Positions 3 to 49,227 of a DNA stretch of 64,000 bases are shown here, one piece after another. The stretch spans positions 992,001 to 1,056,000 of the forward strand of contig NZ_FPAP01000002.1 in NCBI RefSeq assembly GCF_900116415.1. Reading direction: 5' to 3'. Source of the stretch: Chryseobacterium formosense (GTDB lineage Bacteria > Bacteroidota > Bacteroidia > Flavobacteriales > Weeksellaceae). The notes under the pieces are model-generated. The model made no database searches and had not been told where the DNA came from. It saw nothing but the letters and a program-made list of their open reading frames with translations. Position 1 is the first letter of the stretch, and each line of letters begins with the position of its first letter. A program made the translations under genes and the position numbers.

Positions 3-2018
3 TGGACTCAGGGTGAAACAGAATCTTCTTCAGCCTGGTTTCCGACTATTGATAAACCCAATCAGAAAACAACACAGGAAATCTTTATGACCGTTCCTGA
101 TAAATACGTTACGCTTTCAAACGGAATTTTAAAAGAATCAAAAAAAGAATCCAACGGCGAAAGAACAGATCATTGGGTGATGGATAAAAGACATTCAACT
201 TACCTTTTCTTTATGGGAGTTGGTGAATACGCGGTTGTAAAAGATAAATGGAAAAATATTCCGGTAGATTATTATATCGAAAAAGAATATGAGCCTTACG
301 CAAAGCAGATCTACGGAAATACTCCTGAAATGATCGATTTTTTCTCTAAAAAACTGGGTTATGATTATCCCTGGGCGAAATATGCACAGATTTCGGGAAG
401 AGATTACGTTAGCGGCGCAATGGAAAATACAACAGCAACGCTTCACGGAAGCGATATTTTACAAAAACCAGGTCAGTTGATCGATGAAAATAAATGGGAA
501 GATACGATCGCTCACGAATTATTCCACCATTGGTTTGGAGATCTGGTTACCGCAGAAAGCTGGAGTAATTTAACGGTGAACGAATCTTTTGCCAATTACT
601 CAGAATACCTTTGGAACGAGTATAAATACGGAAAAGATCAGGCAGATTATCATCAGATGGAAGATGTAGGTCATTACATCCATAATCCTGGAGATTTCAA
701 AAAGAATCTGGTACGGTTTGACTACAGTTCTCGCGAAGATGTTTTCGATCTTGTTACGTATCAGAAAGGAGGCGGAATTCTGCACATGCTGAGAAATTAT
801 CTTGGTGATGATGCATTTTTTGCAGGAATCACAGACTATCTTAAAACCAACGAATACAAAAATGCCGAAGCGCATCAGCTTAGACTATCATTCGAGAAAG
901 TTTCAGGAAAAGATTTAAACTGGTTCTTCAATCAATGGTATTTCGGAAGCGGAAACCCGAAATTGAGTTATACTACATCATTTGAACCAGTAAAAAAACA
1001 GATTACCGTTACTTTGAATCAGTCACAGGATCTTCCGTTCGAATTTCCTTTGGCAATTGATGTGTATGATAATGGTAAACCTAAAAGATACAATGTTTGG
1101 GCAAATGCTGCTGCAAAAAATACATTTACATTTGATTCGTCTAAAAACCCGGATTTAATTAATATAAATGCCGACGGAATTTTACTTGCCGATATTACCG
1201 ATTCTAAAACACCGGAACAAAATCTTCTTCAATTTACCAATTCTAAGGAATTTAAGAGCAAATACAATGCGCTGAACGGTATCAAAGATCAGGTAGGTAA
1301 AAATCCTGCTGCCACAAAATTATTGTCTGCCGCTTTAAAAGATTCTTTTTTCAGAATCAGAATTAAAGCTTTGGAATTAATGGATTTAAGTATTCCCGAA
1401 CAAGCGAAAACTTTAGCCGGAGACGTTGAAAAATTAGCCGTAAATGATCCAAAAACATTGGTTCAGGGAGCTGCAATTGCCGCCTTAGCGAAAACCAAAG
1501 ACAAAAAATATGTGGCAATTTTTGAAAAAGGATTAAATGCAGTTTCCAATTCGGTAAAGGTAAATTCTTTGGCTGCTATTATTTCTGTAGACCCGTCAAA
1601 AGCCAATACATTTGCCGATAAAATAGATTTACAGGATGCTTCAGAAGAAATGCTGAATCAGCTTTTACCTGTTGTGGTTAAAAATAAGGTGACTTCTCAA
1701 ATGGCTAATTTAGCTCCTGTTGTAGCTTTTTATCCTTTTGTGAAATTCCAGGATCCCGAATTGGGGAAAGTTGCTGAAGAAGGCTACAACTGGATTATGA
1801 CTTCCGATAATCTGAAAGCTACAGAAAGTATTACAAAGATTTTGGGACAGGCAAAAGGTCAGATGGGAGACAATCCTCAAGTGAAAATGATGATTACCCA
1901 AATGCTGAAAGAAGGATTAAACAAAAAAATGGAACTCCTTAAACAAAATCCTCAGAAAGCGGCAAGTATCAATTCGCAGATTGATGCAATTAATAAGGCT
2001 ATCGAAAATTTTAAATAG
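3..2018 (+). CDS. M1 family zinc aminopeptidase, 5'-truncated by the window edge
   Basis: This is the C-terminal part of a gluzincin (M1) metallopeptidase, which removes N-terminal residues from peptides, probably in the periplasm. The frame is open from base 3, and the residues before the first in-frame ATG (87) still read as M1 sequence, so the true start lies outside the window. Numbering from that ATG, the substrate-binding GAMEN motif is at 110-114, the zinc motif HELFH at 143-147 and the third zinc ligand is Glu166 in the NESFAN segment. The C-terminal third is helical and resembles the HEAT-like tail of the family. A strong hairpin terminator follows the stop. Family assignment is firm; substrate is unknown. 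Confidence 0.93.
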   Translation, partial: WTQGETESSSAWFPTIDKPNQKTTQEIFMTVPDKYVTLSNGILKESKKESNGERTDHWVMDKRHSTYLFFMGVGEYAVVKDKWKNIPVDYYIEKEYEPYAKQIYGNTPEMIDFFSKKLGYDYPWAKYAQISGRDYVSGAMENTTATLHGSDILQKPGQLIDENKWEDTIAHELFHHWFGDLVTAESWSNLTVNESFANYSEYLWNEYKYGKDQADYHQMEDVGHYIHNPGDFKKNLVRFDYSSREDVFDLVTYQKGGGILHMLRNYLGDDAFFAGITDYLKTNEYKNAEAHQLRLSFEKVSGKDLNWFFNQWYFGSGNPKLSYTTSFEPVKKQITVTLNQSQDLPFEFPLAIDVYDNGKPKRYNVWANAAAKNTFTFDSSKNPDLININADGILLADITDSKTPEQNLLQFTNSKEFKSKYNALNGIKDQVGKNPAATKLLSAALKDSFFRIRIKALELMDLSIPEQAKTLAGDVEKLAVNDPKTLVQGAAIAALAKTKDKKYVAIFEKGLNAVSNSVKVNSLAAIISVDPSKANTFADKIDLQDASEEMLNQLLPVVVKNKVTSQMANLAPVVAFYPFVKFQDPELGKVAEEGYNWIMTSDNLKATESITKILGQAKGQMGDNPQVKMMITQMLKEGLNKKMELLKQNPQKAASINSQIDAINKAIENFK

Positions 2019-2038
2019 TTTTAAAAAAAATTATAATT

Positions 2039-2068
2039 AAAACCGTTGTGAAAGCAGCGGTTTTTTTT
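2039..2068 (+). terminator. Rho-independent terminator after the M1 aminopeptidase
   Basis: A nine-base-pair stem (AAACCGTTG paired with CAGCGGTTT, one G-T pair) is followed by a run of eight T, 21 bases after the stop codon. Confidence 0.85.
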
Positions 2069-2128
2069 GGTTCTAATATTACTTTATGAAAATTAATTTT
2101 TTAACGTATTGTTTAAAATGTTATTTAT

Positions 2129-2162
2129 TTGATAATTTAAAAAAATATTATTTATATATTTG
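2129..2162 (+). promoter_or_regulatory. Bacteroidetes-type promoter for the T9SS cargo gene
   Basis: The -7 box TATATTTG at 2155-2162 fits TAnnTTTG. A TTG at 2129-2131 lies 23 bases upstream, at the long end of the -33 spacing range. The start codon follows 29 bases downstream of the box. Confidence 0.55.
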
Positions 2163-2191
2163 ATATTAAAATAACTTAAATTATAATAATT

Positions 2192-3022
2192 ATGAAAACA
2201 AAAATATTTTTTGGTTTTACAATAAAGCCTTTATTATTTGCAATAGCTGTTGCTACAGGTGTTTTTGCAAATGCACAGATTACGACATTTCCCTGGACTG
2301 AAACTTTTGAAGACAATTCTCCCACAAGAGCAGACTGGACTCAAATTTATGAATTAAACAATATGTCCTGGACATTTGCAACTTCCGCAAGCACAGGAAG
2401 TTGGGGTGTTACAGCTTATCAAGGAACAAAATTTGCAAATTATCCCGGAACTTCTCATGATTTTGACAAGACCAAATTGGTAAGCCCTCCTTTGAACTTA
2501 TCGGCTGTTACAAGTCCTACCGTAAGTTTTTATTATATTAATCCTTATTGGAGCCCTGATCAGAATTGGCTGAGAGTTTTTTACAGAACGTCAACAACTT
2601 CAGCTTGGGTACAGATTGCAGAATTCCATTCTGATATTACTGCATGGACTTCATCAGGATCTATCGGTATTCCACCGACAACGTACCAGATTGCTATCGA
2701 ATGTGAAACAGATTACGGATATTCTACTTTGGTAGATGCAGTAGTAGTTTCTGGTAGTAATTTAGCTGTTAAAGATCTTCAAAAACCGACAAAATCGGCA
2801 ATCAGCTATTATCCTAACCCTGTTCAGGATGTTTTAAATTATAAGAGCAACGAGAAGGTTCATGAAATTTCTATCTATAATATTTCAGGTCAAAAAGTGG
2901 ATCAATATGAAGCAGGCGCGAATGAAGGTAGAATTAATGTTTCTTCTTTGGCAAGCGGAACCTATATCGTTAGTGGAAAAACTGATCGCGGTACAGAATC
3001 CTTTAAAATGATCAAGAAATAA
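2192..3022 (+). CDS. Secreted T9SS type A sorting domain protein
   Basis: A 276-residue exported protein. It has an N-terminal signal peptide ending near residue 28 (VFANAQ), a central beta-rich domain of cleaved-adhesin/MAM-like appearance (residues about 35-195, with many W, Y and T), and a C-terminal sorting domain from about residue 205 that starts with the typical YYPNPV motif and ends in basic residues (KMIKK). Known members of this domain family are moved across the outer membrane by the type IX system and attached to or released from the cell surface. The gene stands alone between two terminators. The passenger function is unknown. Confidence 0.85.
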   Translation: MKTKIFFGFTIKPLLFAIAVATGVFANAQITTFPWTETFEDNSPTRADWTQIYELNNMSWTFATSASTGSWGVTAYQGTKFANYPGTSHDFDKTKLVSPPLNLSAVTSPTVSFYYINPYWSPDQNWLRVFYRTSTTSAWVQIAEFHSDITAWTSSGSIGIPPTTYQIAIECETDYGYSTLVDAVVVSGSNLAVKDLQKPTKSAISYYPNPVQDVLNYKSNEKVHEISIYNISGQKVDQYEAGANEGRINVSSLASGTYIVSGKTDRGTESFKMIKK

Positions 3023-3059
3023 GACAATTAAAATTTAATCAAATCAGATATTCATCTTA

Positions 3060-3086
3060 AAGCATCTCGTCAGGGATGCTTTTTTG
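3060..3086 (+). terminator. Rho-independent terminator
   Basis: Stem AAGCATC / GATGCTT with an eight-base loop and a following T run. Confidence 0.8.
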
Positions 3087-3164
3087 TTTAATCATTAAAA
3101 ATTAATGTAATCATCAGTGATTTTTTGTATAATCTTTTATAAATTAGTTTAAAATTTAACGATT

Positions 3165-4493
3165 ATGGGTTTTGGAATTGAGGCAGCAAGCTATTATGTG
3201 CCTTCTTTGTATTTGGAAATTAAAGATTTAGCAGAAAAAAGAGGAATCGAACCTGCAAAACTGGAAAAAGGACTAGGACTGCATAAAATGGGATTTCCCG
3301 ATGTTCATGAGGATGCTGCAACATTTGCTGCTGAAGCTTTACTAAAGCTGATAAAAGATTATAACTTAAATCCAAAAGAAATATCTAGAATTTACTTAGG
3401 AACAGAAAGTGCAATCGATGCCGCAAAACCAACAGCTTCTTACGCGATGCAAATGGCAGAAAAAGTTTTGGAAACAGAATTTGGCGAAAGATGTTTTAAA
3501 AATTGTGATGTTGTAGATATGACTTTTGCCTGTATTGGTGCAGTTGATGCACTTCACAATTCATTAGATTTTGTGAGGGTAAATCCTGAAAAGAAAGCAA
3601 TCGTGATTGCAAGTGATTATGCAAAATACGAACTGGCTTCTTCCGGCGAATATACTCAGGGTGGAGGTGCTGTTGCTTTATTGGTTTCTGCAAAACCTGA
3701 TTTAATTGAAATTGAAAACAATTGGGGAGTTGCCACAGAAAGTGTTTTTGATTTTTTCAAGCCAAGACGTCAATTCAAAAAAGAAGATTTAGAAAATTCT
3801 CCGGAAAATTTCCCTGATAAAATTGAGATTTTTACAGATGAACCTGTTTTCGATGGGCAATATTCCAATCAGTGCTATCAGGACAGGATAAGAGAAGCTT
3901 ATAACCATTATAAAGAAATTACAAAGAGAGATAAACCTTATGAAGACTGGAAATACCTTATTTTCCACCTTCCGTATGCTTTTCATGGGAAAAGAGTTTT
4001 TACAGAGATCTATAGCCTGGAAAATGGACTTTCTTATGAAACTCAGGATGAACAGAAAACTGTGGCTAAATCTGAGGATTATCTTAATTTTATCAATAAA
4101 AAAATAGAGAAATCTCAACGTGCTTCATCAGAAATAGGAAATATGTACACGGCTTCGATTTTTATGGCTTTGCTTTCTGCCATGCAAACTTCGTTTAATG
4201 AAAATGAAGAATTAGCAGGTAATGAGATTGGGTTTTTAGGATACGGTAGTGGCTCGAAATCTAAAGTTTTTGCCGGAAAAGTTTCAGAAAACTGGAAAAA
4301 AGTTGTTGAAAAATGGAATTTATTTGAAAATCTGAAACACCGTTTGGCTATTGATTTTGATACCTACGAAAAACTTCACAGAAAACAGTTGGAACATTCT
4401 GTAAACCCGGATTACAAAGGATTTGGTTTGCAATCTGTAGAACTGGAGAATCCTGTGTTGAAAGGAGCGAGATATTATGGTTATAAAGGTTAA
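3165..4493 (+). CDS. Hydroxymethylglutaryl-CoA synthase (mevalonate pathway)
   Basis: A 442-residue thiolase-fold enzyme that condenses acetyl-CoA and acetoacetyl-CoA to HMG-CoA, the first committed step of the mevalonate route to isoprenoids used by flavobacteria. Visible catalytic residues are the acylated Cys123 in the MTFACIGAVDAL segment, Glu81 in the GTESAID segment and His268 in the FHLPYAFHGKR segment; the GSGSKS motif near residue 365 matches the CoA-binding end. The length fits the family. The gene is monocistronic, with no other isoprenoid gene next to it, and it ends at a hairpin shared with the convergent symporter gene. Confidence 0.93.
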   Translation: MGFGIEAASYYVPSLYLEIKDLAEKRGIEPAKLEKGLGLHKMGFPDVHEDAATFAAEALLKLIKDYNLNPKEISRIYLGTESAIDAAKPTASYAMQMAEKVLETEFGERCFKNCDVVDMTFACIGAVDALHNSLDFVRVNPEKKAIVIASDYAKYELASSGEYTQGGGAVALLVSAKPDLIEIENNWGVATESVFDFFKPRRQFKKEDLENSPENFPDKIEIFTDEPVFDGQYSNQCYQDRIREAYNHYKEITKRDKPYEDWKYLIFHLPYAFHGKRVFTEIYSLENGLSYETQDEQKTVAKSEDYLNFINKKIEKSQRASSEIGNMYTASIFMALLSAMQTSFNENEELAGNEIGFLGYGSGSKSKVFAGKVSENWKKVVEKWNLFENLKHRLAIDFDTYEKLHRKQLEHSVNPDYKGFGLQSVELENPVLKGARYYGYKG

Positions 4494-4502
4494 AGTGATA
4501 AA

Positions 4503-4528
4503 AAAGCACTTCATCTGAAGTGTTTTTT
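4503..4528. terminator. Bidirectional terminator between HMG-CoA synthase and symporter genes
   Basis: Stem CACTTCA / TGAAGTG with A-rich and T-rich flanks on both sides, so it can act on both converging transcripts. Confidence 0.75.
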
Positions 4529-4546
4529 TATTTAAACTAAAAAAAA

Positions 4547-5746
4547 TCAAACCTTCACAAACCGATTTACAAACATTGCTGCGACAATATCACCAACTGC
4601 ATTTAAAACTGTTGCCAAAGGATCAACCAATGTTCCGATGATGATAACGGCAGGAACGGCTTCCTGCGGCAGATTGTAAACAGAAATCATCAGCATTTCT
4701 CCAATATATCCGCCATTGGGAATTCCGCCTGCGACAATGCTTACAAAAACAGTGATTCCTAAAGCCAAAAGAAGATTCGACGGTTCAAAAAAATCTCTTC
4801 CGATAATCTGAAATGCTACATAAATTTTAATAATTGACGACATCGACGAGCCATTTTTATGCAGTGTTGTCCCAATCGGAATAACCAAATTGGCAATCTG
4901 ACTCGGAATACCAATTTTTGAAGCCGCCACCAAATTGGATGGCATCGTGGCAAAGCTGCTGCAGGTACTCAACGCTGTTAATGTTGGGTAGGTAGCATGT
5001 TTCCAGAAGCTTTTAATTCCGTTTTGTCCGTTTGCCATGAAAGCATACAGCGTAAAAAACACAAAGAAGTAAACAATTCCTGCAATATAATACAAACCGA
5101 GAGGCTTTGCATAAAATCCGAAAAGCTGAGGTCCAAGTGTGGCAACCTGAAAGGCAAAATAAGCGCCCAAACCAATCGGAGCAATTTTCATAATCATTAA
5201 AAGCAACTCTTTCATCACCTCATATCCGGAAGCAATAAAAACTCTGAAAGGTTTGCCACTTTCTCCTGCTTTTCGCGCTGCAAAACCAGTCAGGAATGCG
5301 AAAATGAGCAAAGCCAACATATTTTTCCTTGAAAACAGTTCGGTAAATTCTCCCACCGTGAAAAAGCTTACAATCCGGTCGCTCCAGTTTTCTTCTTTAG
5401 TTGCTTCCGCAATCAGTTCCGAACTTCCAGAGATCGAAGAAACCGGGAAAAGATAAACTGCACCAATTGTAAAAACTGCAGCAATGAGTATGAATAAGAG
5501 AAACGTAAAAGACATCACCAACAGGATCTTCCCAAATTTTGAGTCCTGTTCGAGAGAAGCTATAGAATTAGAAACCGCAAAAAATACCAGCGGAACAACA
5601 CTTACAAAAAGAAGATTCAGAAAAATGTCACCTAAAGGTTTGATATAAGAAACTACTTCCGGTAAAAAGATTCCGATAAGGCTTCCAATGGTGATTCCCA
5701 AAAGAAGAAGAATGATTCCCGAATAGTTTTTTAAGACTTCTTTCAT
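4547..5746 (-). CDS. Dicarboxylate/amino acid:cation symporter (DAACS family)
   Basis: A 399-residue inner-membrane carrier of the glutamate/aspartate transporter (SDF) family, driving uptake of dicarboxylates or acidic amino acids with sodium or protons. About eight hydrophobic segments are visible, plus the two re-entrant loop motifs: a Ser-rich [11 protein letters not shown] stretch and [12 protein letters not shown] followed by the last transmembrane segments. The reading frame can be extended to a TTG at 5761, but that TTG lies inside the promoter box TATCTTTG, so the ATG at 5746 is the better start. The gene is divergent from cbpA. Exact substrate cannot be read from sequence. Confidence 0.9.
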
Positions 5747-43977: not shown

Positions 43978-44862
43978 TTATTTAGAAATGAAATAAGAAA
44001 TTCCTAAACTGATTTTTCTTTCAGCAAAGGTATTATTAGTCTTAAAAATGTCAAAATCAAATGAACTGTTTTTTAACGAAAGATTCCTGATTTTATAGTG
44101 TTGATATTCGAGATCGATCAGAAAACGGCTGAAAATTCGATATTGCAGCCCAAATGAAAAACCAAGATTGATCTGATCACTTTTAAAATCATCCAACTTA
44201 TTCAAAATGTTATTCTCAGGAACTAAAAACTGCATTTTGTACCTATTTTTATTGATTAGAAAACCTGCGAACGGACGAAAGTTTTTCCATTCGTAGATTG
44301 CTTTTAGCTGTACAACATATTCATAATGTTTATTGTTGAATCTCTGAAAAAGTAAAGGTTTAGAGTTTTCAGTAAAATAAAATCCGTTCAGAAAAGTCTC
44401 TTCCCGATTGGCATCAAGATCGAATGTAGAATTCCAGTGAAAAACATTTGCAGAAAGCATGAGCGAAAAATTGGGATTGATAATGCTTTTTGAAATCCAG
44501 ATACCCAGATTTTGCCCAAACTGCTGTTTTTTACCAGATAAATTTTCTGCCCAATTAGCATTTTTTAAACCAATTCCGGCCTGAATTCCATATTTAAAGC
44601 CTGTGTTTGAAGTTTTTTTTATCTGTTCTTCAAGATCCTCTTTATTGATGATCTTGCTATTTGAAAGAATCTCCTGATGCTGAATCTGTAGAGGTGAAAA
44701 AGTGAGATGTGCAAGTTTTATTTTGATGGCTTTTTCGATATAGATCGTGTCATAAACAATCACTTTTTCATAAACATATACCGTATCTGTTTTTTTGCGT
44801 TGCGCAAAGGTTTGGATAAATACGATGGCAGAAAAAAGTAAAATTATTTTTCTTAAAAGCAT
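43978..44862 (-). CDS. Outer membrane beta-barrel protein of the sigma-factor operon
   Basis: A 294-residue protein with a signal peptide (residues 1-20, IQTFAQ). A short periplasmic segment with the repeat-like words TDTVYVYEKVIVYDTIYIEK (about 24-43) precedes a barrel-like region (about 90-294) with alternating aromatics, for example FGFSFGLQYRIFSRFLIDLEY, and a C-terminal SLGISYFISK. The DTIYIE word also closes the sigma factor encoded just upstream (DTIYIER). It starts 12 bases after the sigma gene. Function is unknown; I infer a surface or envelope partner of the sigma factor. Confidence 0.72.
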   Translation of the reverse strand: MLLRKIILLFSAIVFIQTFAQRKKTDTVYVYEKVIVYDTIYIEKAIKIKLAHLTFSPLQIQHQEILSNSKIINKEDLEEQIKKTSNTGFKYGIQAGIGLKNANWAENLSGKKQQFGQNLGIWISKSIINPNFSLMLSANVFHWNSTFDLDANREETFLNGFYFTENSKPLLFQRFNNKHYEYVVQLKAIYEWKNFRPFAGFLINKNRYKMQFLVPENNILNKLDDFKSDQINLGFSFGLQYRIFSRFLIDLEYQHYKIRNLSLKNSSFDFDIFKTNNTFAERKISLGISYFISK

Positions 44863-44874
44863 GGTTTAGTCAGT

Positions 44875-45969
44875 TTATCTTTCGATATAAATGGTGTCTC
44901 TCTGAATGATCTTCTTTACGACAATTACTTTATGTGCCGTAGTTTTAGCAGAATCTTTTTTATTTATAATTTTTGAAGATACTAAGTTTTTTGTTTTATT
45001 TGGTTGTTTTTCTTTGCTTAAATCTATGCTGAATTTTTTGTCTGATTTTTCTTCGGTCTGATTACTTTCCAAGCTTTTTTTGACCGCATTTTTATTCTTG
45101 ATATTGCTTTGATGATTATCTGCAATTTTCTCCGTCAAGTTTAAATTTTGGGAATCCGAATGATTTATAGCGCCCCAATTTTTTTTAGGATTAAAAAAGA
45201 ATATACTTCCAACAATAATGATAAAAAATGCACATGCGATAATGGCTTTTTGCTTCCAATGATGATGAGCAGATGAAAACGTAATGTTATTCACCATAAT
45301 ATCTGACGGAATTTCAAAATTTTGGGAAGGAGAAACTGTGAAATCTGAAAATTTACTCTGAAAGGTTTGTGCCCACAATAATCCACCAAAACCTAAGAAA
45401 ATTAAGAGCTGTGCCGTTTTATTTTTTGAACTTTCTTTATTGACAAAATGTGTGAGCAAATAATTCTGAACCGATTTCTTCGCTCTCATCAGATGAGATT
45501 TTGAAGTATTAACCGGGATTTCCAAGATCCCTGAAATCTCTGCATGAGAATAATTTTCGAGGTAATATAAATTGAAAACCGATTTGTGATGTGGAGCCAG
45601 ATTATCGATGGATTTCAGCAGTTCTTCCTGCGTAAAATCGTATGCTAAAATATTCTTCTTCTCGTCAAAAGCTGCTGTATTCATTTCGGTATATATATCC
45701 GGGATTTCTGATGTTTCTGTGGTAATAAATGTATCCTTGGTCGTTTTTCGAATAACCTGTAAAGCATTATTGACTACAATTTTTTTAAGCCATCCAAAAA
45801 CTGCTTTTTCATCTTTCAACTGGTAGTTTTTCTGCATTGCTGTGATAAAGCTATCCTGCACAATGTCTTCCGCAGTTGGTAGATCTGCGATATATCTGCG
45901 ACAAATCCCCAAAAGTTTCGGGGAATGGTCGAGATAGATTTTTTGCCAGTTGAGTTTTGTTTGAGACAT
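44875..45969 (-). CDS. ECF-type RNA polymerase sigma factor with membrane-spanning C-terminal extension
   Basis: A 364-residue protein. Residues 1-175 are an ECF sigma factor: region 2 (AEDIVQDSFITAMQ, about 33-46) and region 4 (NLAPHHKSVFNLYYLENYSHAEISGIL, about 123-149). Unlike normal ECF factors (about 170-200 residues) it continues with a hydrophobic stretch (187-200), a strong transmembrane helix (241-259) and a Lys/Asn/Ser-rich tail that would be periplasmic and ends in QRDTIYIER. The tail may replace a separate anti-sigma factor. The gene starts one base after the stop of the upstream lipoprotein gene and precedes the OMP gene, so all three are coupled. Confidence 0.82.
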   Translation of the reverse strand: MSQTKLNWQKIYLDHSPKLLGICRRYIADLPTAEDIVQDSFITAMQKNYQLKDEKAVFGWLKKIVVNNALQVIRKTTKDTFITTETSEIPDIYTEMNTAAFDEKKNILAYDFTQEELLKSIDNLAPHHKSVFNLYYLENYSHAEISGILEIPVNTSKSHLMRAKKSVQNYLLTHFVNKESSKNKTAQLLIFLGFGGLLWAQTFQSKFSDFTVSPSQNFEIPSDIMVNNITFSSAHHHWKQKAIIACAFFIIIVGSIFFFNPKKNWGAINHSDSQNLNLTEKIADNHQSNIKNKNAVKKSLESNQTEEKSDKKFSIDLSKEKQPNKTKNLVSSKIINKKDSAKTTAHKVIVVKKIIQRDTIYIER

Positions 45970-45970
45970 T

Positions 45971-46945
45971 TTAAAGTTTTACTACGGTAATATTATTAAA
46001 ACTAGAGTTAAAATTTAAGTTCTGAATACTTTGAGTCTCTATATTATTAATATAAACTTTATATTCTATATTGTTCGGATCCATTCTAATCATATAGATG
46101 TTTTCATCTTTTACCTTTAAATCTACAATTATTGGCTTTGATAAATTTGCTGTATATATATAAGTGGAATTTTTATAGTAAGAATCCATCCCTCCATTTA
46201 TGTAAACATCGTTTAAATCTAAAGCCGGTTTATAATTTCTGGTATATGTTGTAGGTGTAATTGGAGTTTCTATACCTGTAATCAAATTTTTATAAAAGAA
46301 AATGGAACTAAAATAAACTTGATTGTCATTTGATACGACAAAGGTATGCTGAGGAAAGCTTGTAGCATTTGATAGTGGATAAAAAACAGAGTTTTTAAAG
46401 TATCCTCCAGTTATTACATTACCTATATCTTTGTTTGCACCAATATATACATCGGAATTGAATACGGTAATTGTAGCAAAATCATTATGCGCTGTCGTAC
46501 TTGTAAACAAAATGTTTTTTGACCCGTTTTTCCAATAACAGAATTCTGCTGGAGTGCTTGATGATATATTAGACCATGTGTAGCCTACAAAATAAATTTC
46601 TCCATTGTTTACATGAAAATCGAAAATATCTAATGCAAATTGGCTGGGAGAATTGGAAGCTTGTCTATAAGTTGTATAATTTCCATTTTTCCAAAAACCG
46701 TATCTGCCTTTCACATAGACATCGTTATTGTCTACAAATAATTTTGTTGGAGCTTCCTCTGGAGATAAGTTATAATTTAATGAATGTTTTACATTATTTT
46801 TCCAGTAACACAAATCTCCATTGTCCTTACCTGATATATAAACGTCATAAGAAGCCGTTTTCTCAAGCCCTTCATCAACATCACTTTCCCTACAAGAAAA
46901 TACTAACGTCAACAACAAAACAAATGGTAAAATTAAATTTTTCAT
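45971..46945 (-). CDS. Repeat-containing lipoprotein of the sigma-factor operon
   Basis: A 324-residue lipoprotein (lipobox VFSC, Cys18). The mature part consists of repeated beta motifs of the type DVYISGKDNGDLCYWKNN, DVYVKGRYGFWKNG, EFCYWKNGS and DVYIGANKD, with the recurring words DVYI and YWKNG, suggesting a beta-propeller of short blades. It would face the periplasm or cell surface and could sense or bind a ligand. It is the first gene of the operon with the sigma factor (one-base gap) and the barrel protein. An ECF-like promoter lies upstream. Confidence 0.72.
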   Translation of the reverse strand: MKNLILPFVLLLTLVFSCRESDVDEGLEKTASYDVYISGKDNGDLCYWKNNVKHSLNYNLSPEEAPTKLFVDNNDVYVKGRYGFWKNGNYTTYRQASNSPSQFALDIFDFHVNNGEIYFVGYTWSNISSSTPAEFCYWKNGSKNILFTSTTAHNDFATITVFNSDVYIGANKDIGNVITGGYFKNSVFYPLSNATSFPQHTFVVSNDNQVYFSSIFFYKNLITGIETPITPTTYTRNYKPALDLNDVYINGGMDSYYKNSTYIYTANLSKPIIVDLKVKDENIYMIRMDPNNIEYKVYINNIETQSIQNLNFNSSFNNITVVKL

Positions 46946-46961
46946 GGCTGTTTTTTTATTA

Positions 46962-46991
46962 TAAGATGCAGAATTATAAAAACGTTGCAGC
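46962..46991 (-). promoter_or_regulatory. Putative ECF-sigma promoter A, before the lipoprotein-sigma-OMP operon
   Basis: GCTGCAAC (46984-46991) and CATCTTA (46962-46968) on the minus strand, 15 bases apart, 17 bases before the ATG at 46945. The same pair occurs at 48007-48036. Confidence 0.5.
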
Positions 46992-46996
46992 TGATC

Positions 46997-47455
46997 TTAA
47001 TTAAATAATATAGGTTTTATTGTTTTAGGAATTTTTACAATGTGATAAGGTTGCGTAATAACAGAAGTAGCATTACCCTGAAGTAATTTTTCTATATCAA
47101 CATTAATATATTGAGGATGTTCTTCAACAGCTATAATATCGATAGAATGACCACCGTTCGGATATACTTCATCAACCACAACAATTGCCATAAACTCATT
47201 AAAATCGATGTAGGTTTGGGTAAAACTTGCAGAAGTCTGATGAGTCGGAGTATCGATTTGATTTAAAAACTGATTCCATTGTGCAGAATTGGTCATCACT
47301 GTATTTTGCTGAACCACATAGTTTGCCGTGATAATGCCTTTACCAATCAGCTGAGAGGTGAACAGGTTTTTGCTTTCTGTGTTGTCATGATGATCATTAC
47401 AAGAAGTGATGATTAAAAAGACGAAACATAGTAGCAGGAATAAATGTTTTTTCAT
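46997..47455 (-). CDS. PrcB-domain-like lipoprotein, copy 1
   Basis: A 152-residue lipoprotein (lipobox ITSC). The C-terminal half shows the pattern of the PrcB C-terminal domain: VVVDEVYPNGGHSIDIIAV followed by TQPYHIVKIPK at the end. PrcB binds the surface protease dentilisin in Treponema, but outside that case the domain function is unknown. It is clearly paralogous to the next upstream gene, with the same length and the same N-terminal MKKHL start. It probably arose by tandem duplication, including the promoter region. Confidence 0.75.
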   Translation of the reverse strand: MKKHLFLLLCFVFLIITSCNDHHDNTESKNLFTSQLIGKGIITANYVVQQNTVMTNSAQWNQFLNQIDTPTHQTSASFTQTYIDFNEFMAIVVVDEVYPNGGHSIDIIAVEEHPQYINVDIEKLLQGNATSVITQPYHIVKIPKTIKPILFN

Positions 47456-47482
47456 AATCTATAAAGTTAGGAGTTCTTTATA

Positions 47483-47509
47483 TAAGATGAAAAAATATAA
47501 AGAGTTATC
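47483..47509 (-). promoter_or_regulatory. Putative ECF-sigma promoter B, before PrcB-like copy 1
   Basis: GATAAC (47504-47509) and CATCTTA (47483-47489) on the minus strand, 14 bases apart; a weaker version of promoters A and C, 27 bases before the ATG. Confidence 0.4.
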
Positions 47510-47516
47510 ATAGATT

Positions 47517-47978
47517 TTAGTTAAATAAAACCGGCTTTGCAATTTTAGGAATTTTCACAATATGATAAGGTTGCGTGACAACAGTTGTAACATCTCCCTG
47601 AAGCAATTTTTCTACATCAACTTCAATATTTTGCGGATTTTCATCAATCGTCATAATATCAACTGAATGTCCGCCGTTTGGATAAACTTCATCAACGACA
47701 AGAATCACCATAAACTGATTAAAATCGATATTGGTTTCCGTAAAACCGGAAGAAGGATGATTGTTTGGGCCGTCAATTTGATTTAGAAAATTATTCCATT
47801 GGGTAGAGTTTGTAATAACTGTATTTTGTGGGGTAGCATAAGTTGCCATAAAATTTCCTTTTCCGATTAACTGAAAATTAATCTGGTTTTTGCTCTCAAT
47901 ATTTTCATCATTATGATCACGACATGAAGTCGAAATCAATAAGATGAAACATAATAAAAATAGTAAATGTTTTTTCAT
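47517..47978 (-). CDS. PrcB-domain-like lipoprotein, copy 2
   Basis: A 153-residue lipoprotein (lipobox STSC) with the same plan as its neighbour: NQFMVILVVDEVYPNGGHS and the C-terminal QPYHIVKIPK. The two copies agree over most of their length and differ mainly in the N-terminal third. It is the outermost gene of the sigma-associated group and carries the strongest-looking ECF-type promoter of the group. Confidence 0.75.
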   Translation of the reverse strand: MKKHLLFLLCFILLISTSCRDHNDENIESKNQINFQLIGKGNFMATYATPQNTVITNSTQWNNFLNQIDGPNNHPSSGFTETNIDFNQFMVILVVDEVYPNGGHSVDIMTIDENPQNIEVDVEKLLQGDVTTVVTQPYHIVKIPKIAKPVLFN

Positions 47979-48006
47979 ATCTATAAATTTAGGGGTTTCT
48001 TTATAT

Positions 48007-48036
48007 TAAGATGAAAAAAAATAAAAAGGTTGCAGC
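48007..48036 (-). promoter_or_regulatory. Putative ECF-sigma promoter C, before PrcB-like copy 2
   Basis: GCTGCAAC (48029-48036) and CATCTTA (48007-48013) on the minus strand, 15 bases apart with a T-rich spacer, as in promoter A. Confidence 0.5.
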
Positions 48037-48048
48037 AGGAAATAAAAA

Positions 48049-48070
48049 AAGACTCAAAATTTTGAGTCTT
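48049..48070 (-). terminator. Terminator of the MenI-like thioesterase gene
   Basis: Perfect palindrome AAGACTCAAAA / TTTTGAGTCTT, followed on the minus strand by a T run. Confidence 0.75.
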
Positions 48071-48584: not shown

Positions 48585-48642
48585 GCTTCTAGCTTCTAGC
48601 TTCTAGCTTCTAGCTTCTAGCTTCTAGCTTCTAGCTTCTAGC
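48585..48642. repeat. Heptanucleotide tandem repeat (GCTTCTA)8
   Basis: Eight perfect GCTTCTA units (48585-48640) plus GC. The right end encodes the last residues and the TAG stop of the acyltransferase gene on the minus strand; the left end lies in the leader region of the MenI-like gene. Confidence 0.95.
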
Positions 48643-49227
48643 GTCCGAATCATTTCCCATCAGATTAGGGTTCCAGTTGGCTGGGATTTTCGGAACAATA
48701 TCATTTTTCACATAGTAATCCTGAATTTCCTGCATAATTTCTGCAAAAGTTGCAGTTACTAATCTTTCGTAAGGAATCTGATATCCTAAATACACAATTT
48801 TTCTTTTGAAATCTCCCGCCGCCAGAACGATTGGAACTTTCGCTGCCAAAGCCATGTGGTAGAATCCTTTTCTCCATTTCGGCACCCAGCTTCTTGTTCC
48901 TTCAGGAGTGATTACCAAGCTGAAATCGTCTTTTTCAAATTCTTTTGCAACAAAATTCACGAGGTCATTTTTCTGGCTTCTGTCGATCCCAATTCCACCT
49001 AAACCTTTTACTGCAGAACCATACCAAGCTTTGGTATGAGCATCTTTGATGATGATTTTTAAAGGTTTTTTTAAAGACCAATAGGCTAAATTTCCCAAAA
49101 GATATTCCATATTGTGAGTATGCGGTGCTACAACCAGAATACATCGGTTAAGATTGTTGACATCGCCCTGTAAAACGACTTTCCAACCCAATAATTTTAG
49201 CATCAATTTACCGATCAGTTTCCTCAT
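48631..49227 (-). CDS. PlsC-like 1-acyl-glycerol-phosphate acyltransferase family protein
   Basis: A 198-residue membrane-associated acyltransferase. The family motifs are APHTHNMEY, where the usual H-x4-D box reads H36-x4-E41, and PEGTR at 108-112. The glutamate in place of the catalytic aspartate is unusual and worth noting. The final residues ARS and the stop TAG are encoded by the heptanucleotide repeat, so the natural C-terminus was probably altered by the repeat. A terminator hairpin sits just upstream of the start codon. Confidence 0.82.
   Translation of the reverse strand: MRKLIGKLMLKLLGWKVVLQGDVNNLNRCILVVAPHTHNMEYLLGNLAYWSLKKPLKIIIKDAHTKAWYGSAVKGLGGIGIDRSQKNDLVNFVAKEFEKDDFSLVITPEGTRSWVPKWRKGFYHMALAAKVPIVLAAGDFKRKIVYLGYQIPYERLVTATFAEIMQEIQDYYVKNDIVPKIPANWNPNLMGNDSDARS

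Follow-up and report, generated by a model that had tools for sequence, protein, structure and literature searches.

A putative membrane-tethered sigma factor, its operon promoter and a possible small barrel partner in Chryseobacterium formosense

How might a bacterium restrain a sigma factor that has no anti-sigma gene beside it? The question is raised by a locus in a 64,000-nucleotide stretch of Chryseobacterium formosense DNA (hereafter the window; RefSeq assembly GCF_900116415.1, contig NZ_FPAP01000002.1, positions 992,001 to 1,056,000), where an extracytoplasmic function (ECF) sigma factor gene with a C-terminal extension lies between the genes of a lipoprotein and an outer-membrane protein (OMP), and no separate anti-sigma gene adjoins it. 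On balance, we read this operon as a one-polypeptide sigma/anti-sigma switch, autoregulated and released by proteolysis, that would resemble IutY but work with an OmpX-like barrel rather than a TonB receptor. The basis is comparative: a shared domain architecture, a stable order of genes, a conserved promoter, the loss of the parts together, and a likeness between the sigma tail and a motif of the OMP. In window coordinates, the operon comprises the following genes:

45971-46945, minus strand: opening gene of the operon, a propeller-like lipoprotein of 324 amino acids containing six [YF]xKN repeats (open reading frames, repeat reading)
44875-45969, minus strand: ECF sigma factor of 364 amino acids, extended at its C-terminus (profile matches, full-length orthologues)
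43978-44862, minus strand: outer-membrane beta-barrel protein, OmpX/OmpA-like (PF13505 near cut-off, model, Foldseek)

Architecture and distribution of the sigma factor

Five segments were located in the sigma protein:

45739-45936, minus strand: sigma region 2, residues 12-77 (PF04542, 37.8 bits, cut-off 24)
45472-45627, minus strand: sigma region 4, residues 115-166 (PF08281, 48 bits, cut-off 25.7)
45304-45423, minus strand: residues 183-222, a conserved juxtamembrane stretch on the cytoplasmic side and a candidate for a built-in anti-sigma element (conservation, hhalign)
45193-45249, minus strand: predicted transmembrane helix, residues 241-259 (Kyte-Doolittle hydropathy)
44878-44934, minus strand: conserved C-terminal motif HKVIVVKKIIQRDTIYIER, residues 346-364 (orthologue comparison)

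Both domain matches exceeded their cut-offs, other sigma regions went unmatched, and TIGR02937 scored 66.6 bits (cut-off 42.9), which places the protein among the ECF sigma-70 factors. Regions 2 and 4 are followed along the chain by the juxtamembrane segment, the transmembrane helix, a variable leash and the conserved C-terminus KVIVVKKIIQRDTIYIER. Conservation, expressed as the mean fraction of the commonest residue per position over 74 rows, was 0.81 in region 2, 0.82 in region 4, 0.68 in residues 183-222, 0.51 in the transmembrane helix, 0.26 in the leash and 0.76 in the last 19 residues; the drop and recovery of the last two values indicate that a variable leash joins the helix to a conserved end. 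The best 19-residue Kyte-Doolittle mean of the helix was 2.55 in the window sigma and at least 1.6 in 72 of the 74 rows. Sigma domains, membrane helix and predicted extracytoplasmic part thus share one chain with no adjacent anti-sigma gene, the arrangement of a sigma/anti-sigma fusion; a sequence-only reading of the window had proposed this architecture, and the Pfam scores and hydropathy bear it out. A single membrane passage with the tail on the outer side of the inner membrane is highly likely. The extension holds no conserved cysteine, the sole (nearly) invariant one being C23 in region 2, and no FecR/STN-like periplasmic domain was matched in Pfam up to E = 1; the leash is disordered in the structural model.

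Orthologues were sought in 59 relatives, including 35 other genomes of the same genus. Full-length proteins with both helix and tail occur in 17 of these 35 (52-70% identity) and in two genomes from other genera of the family, and the further listed matches in relatives cover the sigma core alone or continue only past stop codons. A scan of named genomes yielded 71 loci, mostly from Chryseobacterium, with seven from Flavobacterium and one each from metagenome-assembled genomes labeled Limnohabitans and Chitinophaga, labels that may be wrong. We parsed 69 of the 71; L147 and L148, in which a regular expression missed the sigma, were dropped from the parsed set yet contribute to the 74 rows above. 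The 18 same-genus loci (window included) and the 71 named loci share strains and are not independent sets. Sigma length was 348-374 amino acids in all 69 parsed loci, and [RK]DT lies close to the C-terminus in 66.

Gene order is stable too. On the minus strand of the window it runs thioesterase, two PrcB_C-like lipoproteins, lipoprotein, sigma, barrel OMP and chorismate-binding enzyme, with the lipoprotein gene one base before the sigma ATG and the OMP gene 12 bases past the sigma stop, so that the close coupling to a propeller-like lipoprotein and a barrel is as the sequence-only reading had it. The 18 same-genus loci share this order with zero to two PrcB-like genes; the exceptions are L035 and L042, where no lipoprotein was found, and L031, which has two. 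Lipoprotein-sigma-OMP order also holds in all seven Flavobacterium loci. Sigma and OMP are neighbors in 18 of 18 loci, and an OMP with the motif described below stands beside sigma in 66 of the 69 named loci (not seen in L104, L107 and L110). The lipoprotein matched no Pfam or NCBIfam family, and its six repeats are in line with a propeller. Its identity to the window protein across orthologous loci was 30-39%, against 49-69% for sigma and 53-79% for the OMP; such faster divergence is expected for a surface-exposed part. The OMP scored 28.6 bits against PF13505, just below the cut-off of 28.7, and an AlphaFold model searched with Foldseek predicts an 8-stranded, OmpX/OmpA-like fold. On one 28-kb contig (L205, G506:C2), the whole locus appears as inverted near-identical copies, reflecting either amplification or an assembly artefact.

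The promoter and its distribution

The sequence-only reading had also reported three matching promoters, one before the operon and one before each of two PrcB-like lipoprotein genes:

46962-46991, minus strand: operon promoter, very probably ECF-type, GCTGCAAC-N15-CATCTTA (sequence, orthologue scans)
48007-48036, minus strand: promoter of the same probable type in the exact strong form, upstream of the first PrcB-like gene (sequence, genome scans)
47483-47509, minus strand: degenerate copy GATAAC-N14-CATCTTA, upstream of the second PrcB-like gene (sequence)
46997-47455, minus strand: PrcB_C-like lipoprotein 1 (PF14343, 21.5 bits, cut-off 24)
47517-47978, minus strand: PrcB_C-like lipoprotein 2 (PF14343, 20.7 bits, cut-off 24)

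All three sites are in place and two are exact in both words. The site at 47483-47509, with a -35 reduced to AAC and a spacer of 14, was recovered by none of the looser-word, T-rich and window-mismatch scans; it is probably a decayed copy and is not ranked with the exact pair. The operon site has a G following TGCAAC and a less T-rich spacer, giving three mismatches to the T-rich pattern, against zero for the site at 48007. As for the lipoprotein pair, both genes are present, and the label PrcB-like is weak, since both proteins fall under the Pfam cut-off for the PrcB_C domain.

Counts within the window show no excess of the motif: CATCTTA alone occurs 12 times against 10.9 expected, and the whole pattern with up to two mismatches four times against 1.96 expected, a number reached by 17 of 100 shuffles. 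That the pattern is non-random follows instead from comparison across orthologous loci. Up to 1700 bases upstream of sigma, the 69 loci hold 71 sites without a mismatch, 14 with one and 20 with two, compared with 0, 0 and 12 for the reversed pattern. The best TGCAAC-N15-CATCTT site per locus is exact in 56, has one mismatch in six and two in six, and lies beyond two mismatches in one. All 71 exact sites have a spacer of 15, and the spacer is T-rich. Among 58 distinct Chryseobacterium sites, information content was 2.24 bits per position in TGCAACC, 1.24 in positions 21-30 (the -10 onward), and 0.39 and 0.34 in the flanks, with positions inside TGCAAC and CATCTT biased by the use of these words to pick the sites and positions outside them unbiased. 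At the unbiased positions, C occupies +6 in 90% and -1 in 93%, and T occupies 7-10 in 95-100%. From the -10 to the first ATG that opens a reading frame the median distance is 17 bases, and it is at most 60 in 47 of 56.

Where the lipoprotein is absent or apart, a copy of the promoter stands upstream of sigma itself (L042, G024, G026), and a different small lipoprotein at the PrcB place in L209 has a copy of its own. Among the PrcB-like genes of other loci, the one in L039 carries a site; in L031 and L032 the second copy has it and the first lacks it. All seven Flavobacterium loci retain TGCAACC with a partial T run and a -10 of GCTCTT, ACTCTT or TGTCTT; L145 reads TGCAACCTTTTT, and its -10 diverges further. 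AAC at the -35 is typical of ECF promoters, and here an AAC-type -35 with a short spacer (TGCAAC-N15-CATCTT) lies upstream of the sigma's own operon. That the promoter is real we regard as nearly certain, and that it is of the ECF type as very probable.

In its strong form, TGCAACCTTTTN10CATCTTA, the motif follows the sigma gene across genomes. Among 36 same-genus genomes it occurs in 17 of the 18 with sigma and in none of the 18 without; the one miss (G033) has CATCTTT. Across the genus it is found in 64 of 148 genomes, and the reversed control in none. The own 4.43-Mb genome has one exact strong-form site, at 48007-48036 before the first PrcB-like gene, and looser words give six matches, of which the two with a T-rich spacer are both at the locus. 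Two checks suggested by the sequence-only reading therefore came out in its favor, the motif not being randomly scattered in scans of the own genome and the orthologues keeping both motif and tail. Away from the locus, the promoter is carried by a second lipoprotein of the operon kind (28% identity) on another contig of G001, appears in G015 without a recognized gene, near similar neighbors, and precedes a 503-residue secreted-looking protein in G486. Extra copies in G506 fall within the locus repeats on the small contig noted above and, as possible assembly artefacts, were set aside. In L177 (about 3561) and L178 (about 3567), from G008 and G026, TGCAAC-N15-CATC(T/A)TA lies directly upstream of a gene that we take from its sequence to be smpB-like.

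The sigma tail, the outer-membrane protein and loss of the operon

A second conserved feature, unremarked in the sequence-only reading, links the far end of sigma to its neighbor:

44731-44787, minus strand: motif DTVYVYEKVIVYDTIYIEK near the N-terminus of the OMP (residues 26-44), resembling the C-terminus of sigma (sequence comparison)

The sigma end VIVVKKIIQRDTIYIER aligns without gaps to the start of the mature OMP, VYVYEKVIVYDTIYIEK. In the 62 loci compared (the other 7 of 69 were left out, as the script did not find their OMP start), the BLOSUM62 score had a median of 41, whereas 1193 control windows of the OMPs had a median of 13, with 24 at the 99th percentile and no score above 36. 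The alignment register was identical in 55 of the 62 loci, shuffle p was at most 0.01 in 87%, and Flavobacterium shows the likeness as well. This OMP-like motif in the sigma tail suggests docking, and on whether the tail contacts the OMP we are evenly divided. Structure prediction without an alignment reached a mean pLDDT (predicted local distance difference test) of 33.7, too low to be of use; with an alignment, for which 36 of the loci were used, an AlphaFold model of sigma fused to the OMP was good for the barrel and region 2 and middling for region 4.

Eleven sigma-less genomes that were examined carry scars of a lost operon, with at most an OMP 3′ fragment left. In G019 the promoter is joined to an OMP gene remnant between the thioesterase and the chorismate enzyme; G011 retains the promoter plus, further along, an OMP 3′ fragment; and nine more keep only the last 32-70 OMP codons, with internal stops in three. 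These nine remnants preserve TTTTGACAnnTTTAAGACTAnTAATACCTTTG in eight cases and TACCTTTG in all nine. Judging from these scars, the sigma-less genomes examined once had the operon. The retained element can be placed in the window:

44025-44056, minus strand: probable housekeeping-type promoter TACCTTTG, of the form TAnnTTTG, within the OMP gene 3′ end, which would mark the regulon end (comparison of loci)

TAnnTTTG is described as the box of the primary sigma factor (PMC9723704), and since TACCTTTG fits it, 44025-44056 is probably the housekeeping promoter of the chorismate-binding enzyme gene. Such a promoter would explain why TAATACCTTTGC, part of the OMP coding sequence, is identical in 18 of 18 loci. 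The putative enzyme promoter survives as a fossil in operon-less genomes (loci L176, L193, L195-L202).

At the opposite end of the locus lies one further element:

48050-48069, minus strand: inverted repeat AGACTCAAAATTTTGAGTCT with a run of T after it, which likely terminates the thioesterase gene upstream (sequence reading)

Comparable terminator-like repeats are present in several orthologous loci. Beyond it, period-7 tandem repeats occupy the space between the acyltransferase and thioesterase genes (about 48588-48645 in the window; the same interval in L031-L047). The array exceeds two copies in 14 of the 17 loci that have the interval, and its unit varies between species while the period is constant.

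A proposed switch, its rivals and related systems

In the switch that we propose, the ECF sigma domain would be tethered at the inner membrane by its own transmembrane helix and kept inactive by the conserved cytoplasmic segment ahead of the membrane. A flexible periplasmic leash of about 85 residues would end in the conserved motif, which the barrel may hold or shield in the resting state, and the operon lipoprotein would be a likely sensor or output. A surface signal would free the tail; the tail would then be trimmed, a site-2 protease would cut at the membrane, and the released sigma domain would transcribe TGCAAC-N15-CATCTTA promoters at its own operon, at the adjoining lipoprotein genes and, to judge from the sites, rarely elsewhere. 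We think it likely that this promoter is read by the tethered sigma, and we lean slightly toward release by proteolysis; the own genome has genes matching M50 (one match) and S41 (seven matches) proteases. A fuller picture, in which the single-chain sigma spans the inner membrane and its disordered leash docks on the barrel through a terminal strand mimicking the barrel's N-terminal strand, with neither a TonB receptor nor a separate anti-sigma, is offered tentatively, at just short of even confidence.

Several observations weigh against this proposal. L138 encodes a sigma without a clear transmembrane helix, and in L138-L140 (three of 69) the tail lacks DT though the OMP retains its motif. 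When residues 176-240 were compared by hhalign with anti-sigma N-termini (a profile for which the anti-sigma gene was located in 8 of 11 loci tried), they matched in the expected register with P 0.015 against 0.15-0.87 for three control regions, but with a probability of 2.9%; the likeness is weak, and homology of the juxtamembrane segment to anti-sigma N-termini is not claimed. (In the Chitinophaga-labeled member, DKIYKDAFTTFEVPP ahead of the helix closely resembles the beginning of separate anti-sigma proteins.) The two-mismatch promoter sites, 20 against 12, stand little above their control, and in a whole-genome scan with up to three mismatches off-locus sites were about as frequent as the reversed pattern, so neither a wider regulon nor weak members can be called. 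Motif and sigma occupy one locus, and their joint loss is thus not independent proof. Finally, tail and OMP N-terminus are disordered in the fused AlphaFold model (pLDDT below 50) and show no pairing, for which reason docking is put forward as a hypothesis.

Some of these points feed rival explanations. The promoter could be read by another ECF factor, for instance a second sigma whose anti-sigma is a separate protein, or by several whose specificities overlap, the tethered sigma then not being an autoregulator. TGCAACC...CATCT occurs in G013 and G014 after the genes of a second ECF factor and a transmembrane anti-sigma and before an OmpA-type lipoprotein gene, a similar site precedes an OmpA-type gene in the sigma-less G019, the second ECF sigma of the own genome has CCAACC...CATCTAT upstream, and overlapping ECF regulons are discussed for F. 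psychrophilum (PMC9723704). We nonetheless consider this explanation unlikely, as the strong form tracks the tethered sigma, present with it in all but one genome and absent from every same-genus genome lacking it, though the latter hold other ECF-like matches. The autoregulation proposed by the sequence-only reading accordingly keeps its conserved promoter at the sigma's own operon and loses its exclusivity, the motif being shared in similar form with the second ECF factor; autoregulation itself thus stays a proposal. A membrane-held sigma controlling the surface proteins around it, as that reading also envisaged, is supported by motif confinement and orthologue conservation. At L179 (G000:C5:198000-206000), positions 2002-4901 hold a second ECF sigma gene and then that of a large transmembrane protein, likely an anti-sigma; the sequence upstream of this sigma gene is similar to the operon promoter.

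A different doubt concerns the tail. Tail and OMP motif may never touch, competing instead for a third partner such as a protease of the periplasm, peptidoglycan or a scaffold, or the OMP may be a mere regulated product; the unpaired model fits this, as does the fact that the motifs resemble and do not complement each other. On the other side stand the adjacency of sigma and OMP throughout the 18 loci and in nearly all named ones, and the eleven sigma-less genomes with no more than an OMP 3′ fragment, although adjacency and joint loss argue for joint function, not for contact; we hold this alternative to be doubtful. Very improbable is a return of the tail to the cytoplasm, with a hydrophobic segment at about residues 188-206 forming a second membrane helix and the extension a hairpin: the segment has a 19-residue hydropathy whose median is 1.36, with 8 of 74 rows attaining 1.6, but the Chitinophaga-labeled member reduces it to about 7 hydrophobic residues (0.16) while its membrane helix stays at 2.17, and the model splits it into two short helices. 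This second helix was set aside on hydropathy. The notion of a chance motif beside an ordinary sigma with a meaningless extension draws on the lack of excess in the window alone and is contradicted by the 71 to 0 ratio of exact sites upstream of orthologues, by the -35 retained in Flavobacterium and by the conserved tail end after a variable leash; its probability is negligible.

The tethered switch proposed here has close parallels. IutY of Pseudomonas putida (ECF243) is described as a fusion of sigma and anti-sigma that Prc and RseP release (PMC8999054, PMC5411451), and it likewise builds an ECF sigma, a transmembrane helix and a periplasmic C-terminal part into a single polypeptide and works with an outer-membrane protein. 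Unlike IutY, the present protein belongs to another phylum, has a conserved-end leash where no FecR-like periplasmic domain was found, and neighbors an 8-stranded OmpX/OmpA-like barrel, not a TonB-dependent transducer. In the FoxI-FoxR-FoxA system, the periplasmic part of the receptor is reported to protect the anti-sigma from proteolysis (PMC11637429). There too, as would be the case here, the N-terminal part of an outer-membrane protein reaches into the periplasm and meets the C-terminus of a sigma regulator located there; Fox differs in its separate sigma and anti-sigma, its TonB-dependent transducer with a signaling domain and its iron-carrier signals. By analogy, we infer that the logic of Fox and IutY is followed here, a terminal strand and a small barrel taking the place of their counterparts. 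The C-terminal fusions of ECF48, ECF52 and ECF53 of Actinobacteria to transmembrane anti-sigma parts (PMC8999054) hold a zinc-finger domain, whereas the extension here has no conserved cysteine. Nearer at hand, Bacteroidota ECF factors with a separate transmembrane anti-sigma, such as the second ECF of the own genome, have similar promoter words, a membrane inhibitor and a loosely similar N-terminal motif, but consist of two separate genes.

The family may already have been seen as ECF240, whose exemplar is from Chryseobacterium scophthalmum and which is placed under 'Others' among ECFs with regulatory extensions (PMC8999054, Table 2); genus and extension agree, and the table entry, our sole basis of comparison, lists no mechanism. 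Beyond this entry, the literature searched, mostly titles and the beginnings of abstracts, yielded no study of a fused sigma in this Bacteroidota group. In a 2022 review, IutY is the sole ECF for which experiments had characterized activation via proteolysis of its own fused extension (PMC8999054).

If our proposal is true, the locus would represent a minimal route from surface to promoter, consisting of three genes, with one tethered sigma, a small barrel, a lipoprotein and a sharply defined promoter. It would give many Chryseobacterium and some Flavobacterium species an unusually compact carrier of surface signals, whose conserved promoter and paired motifs lay regulon, topology and docking open to direct tests.

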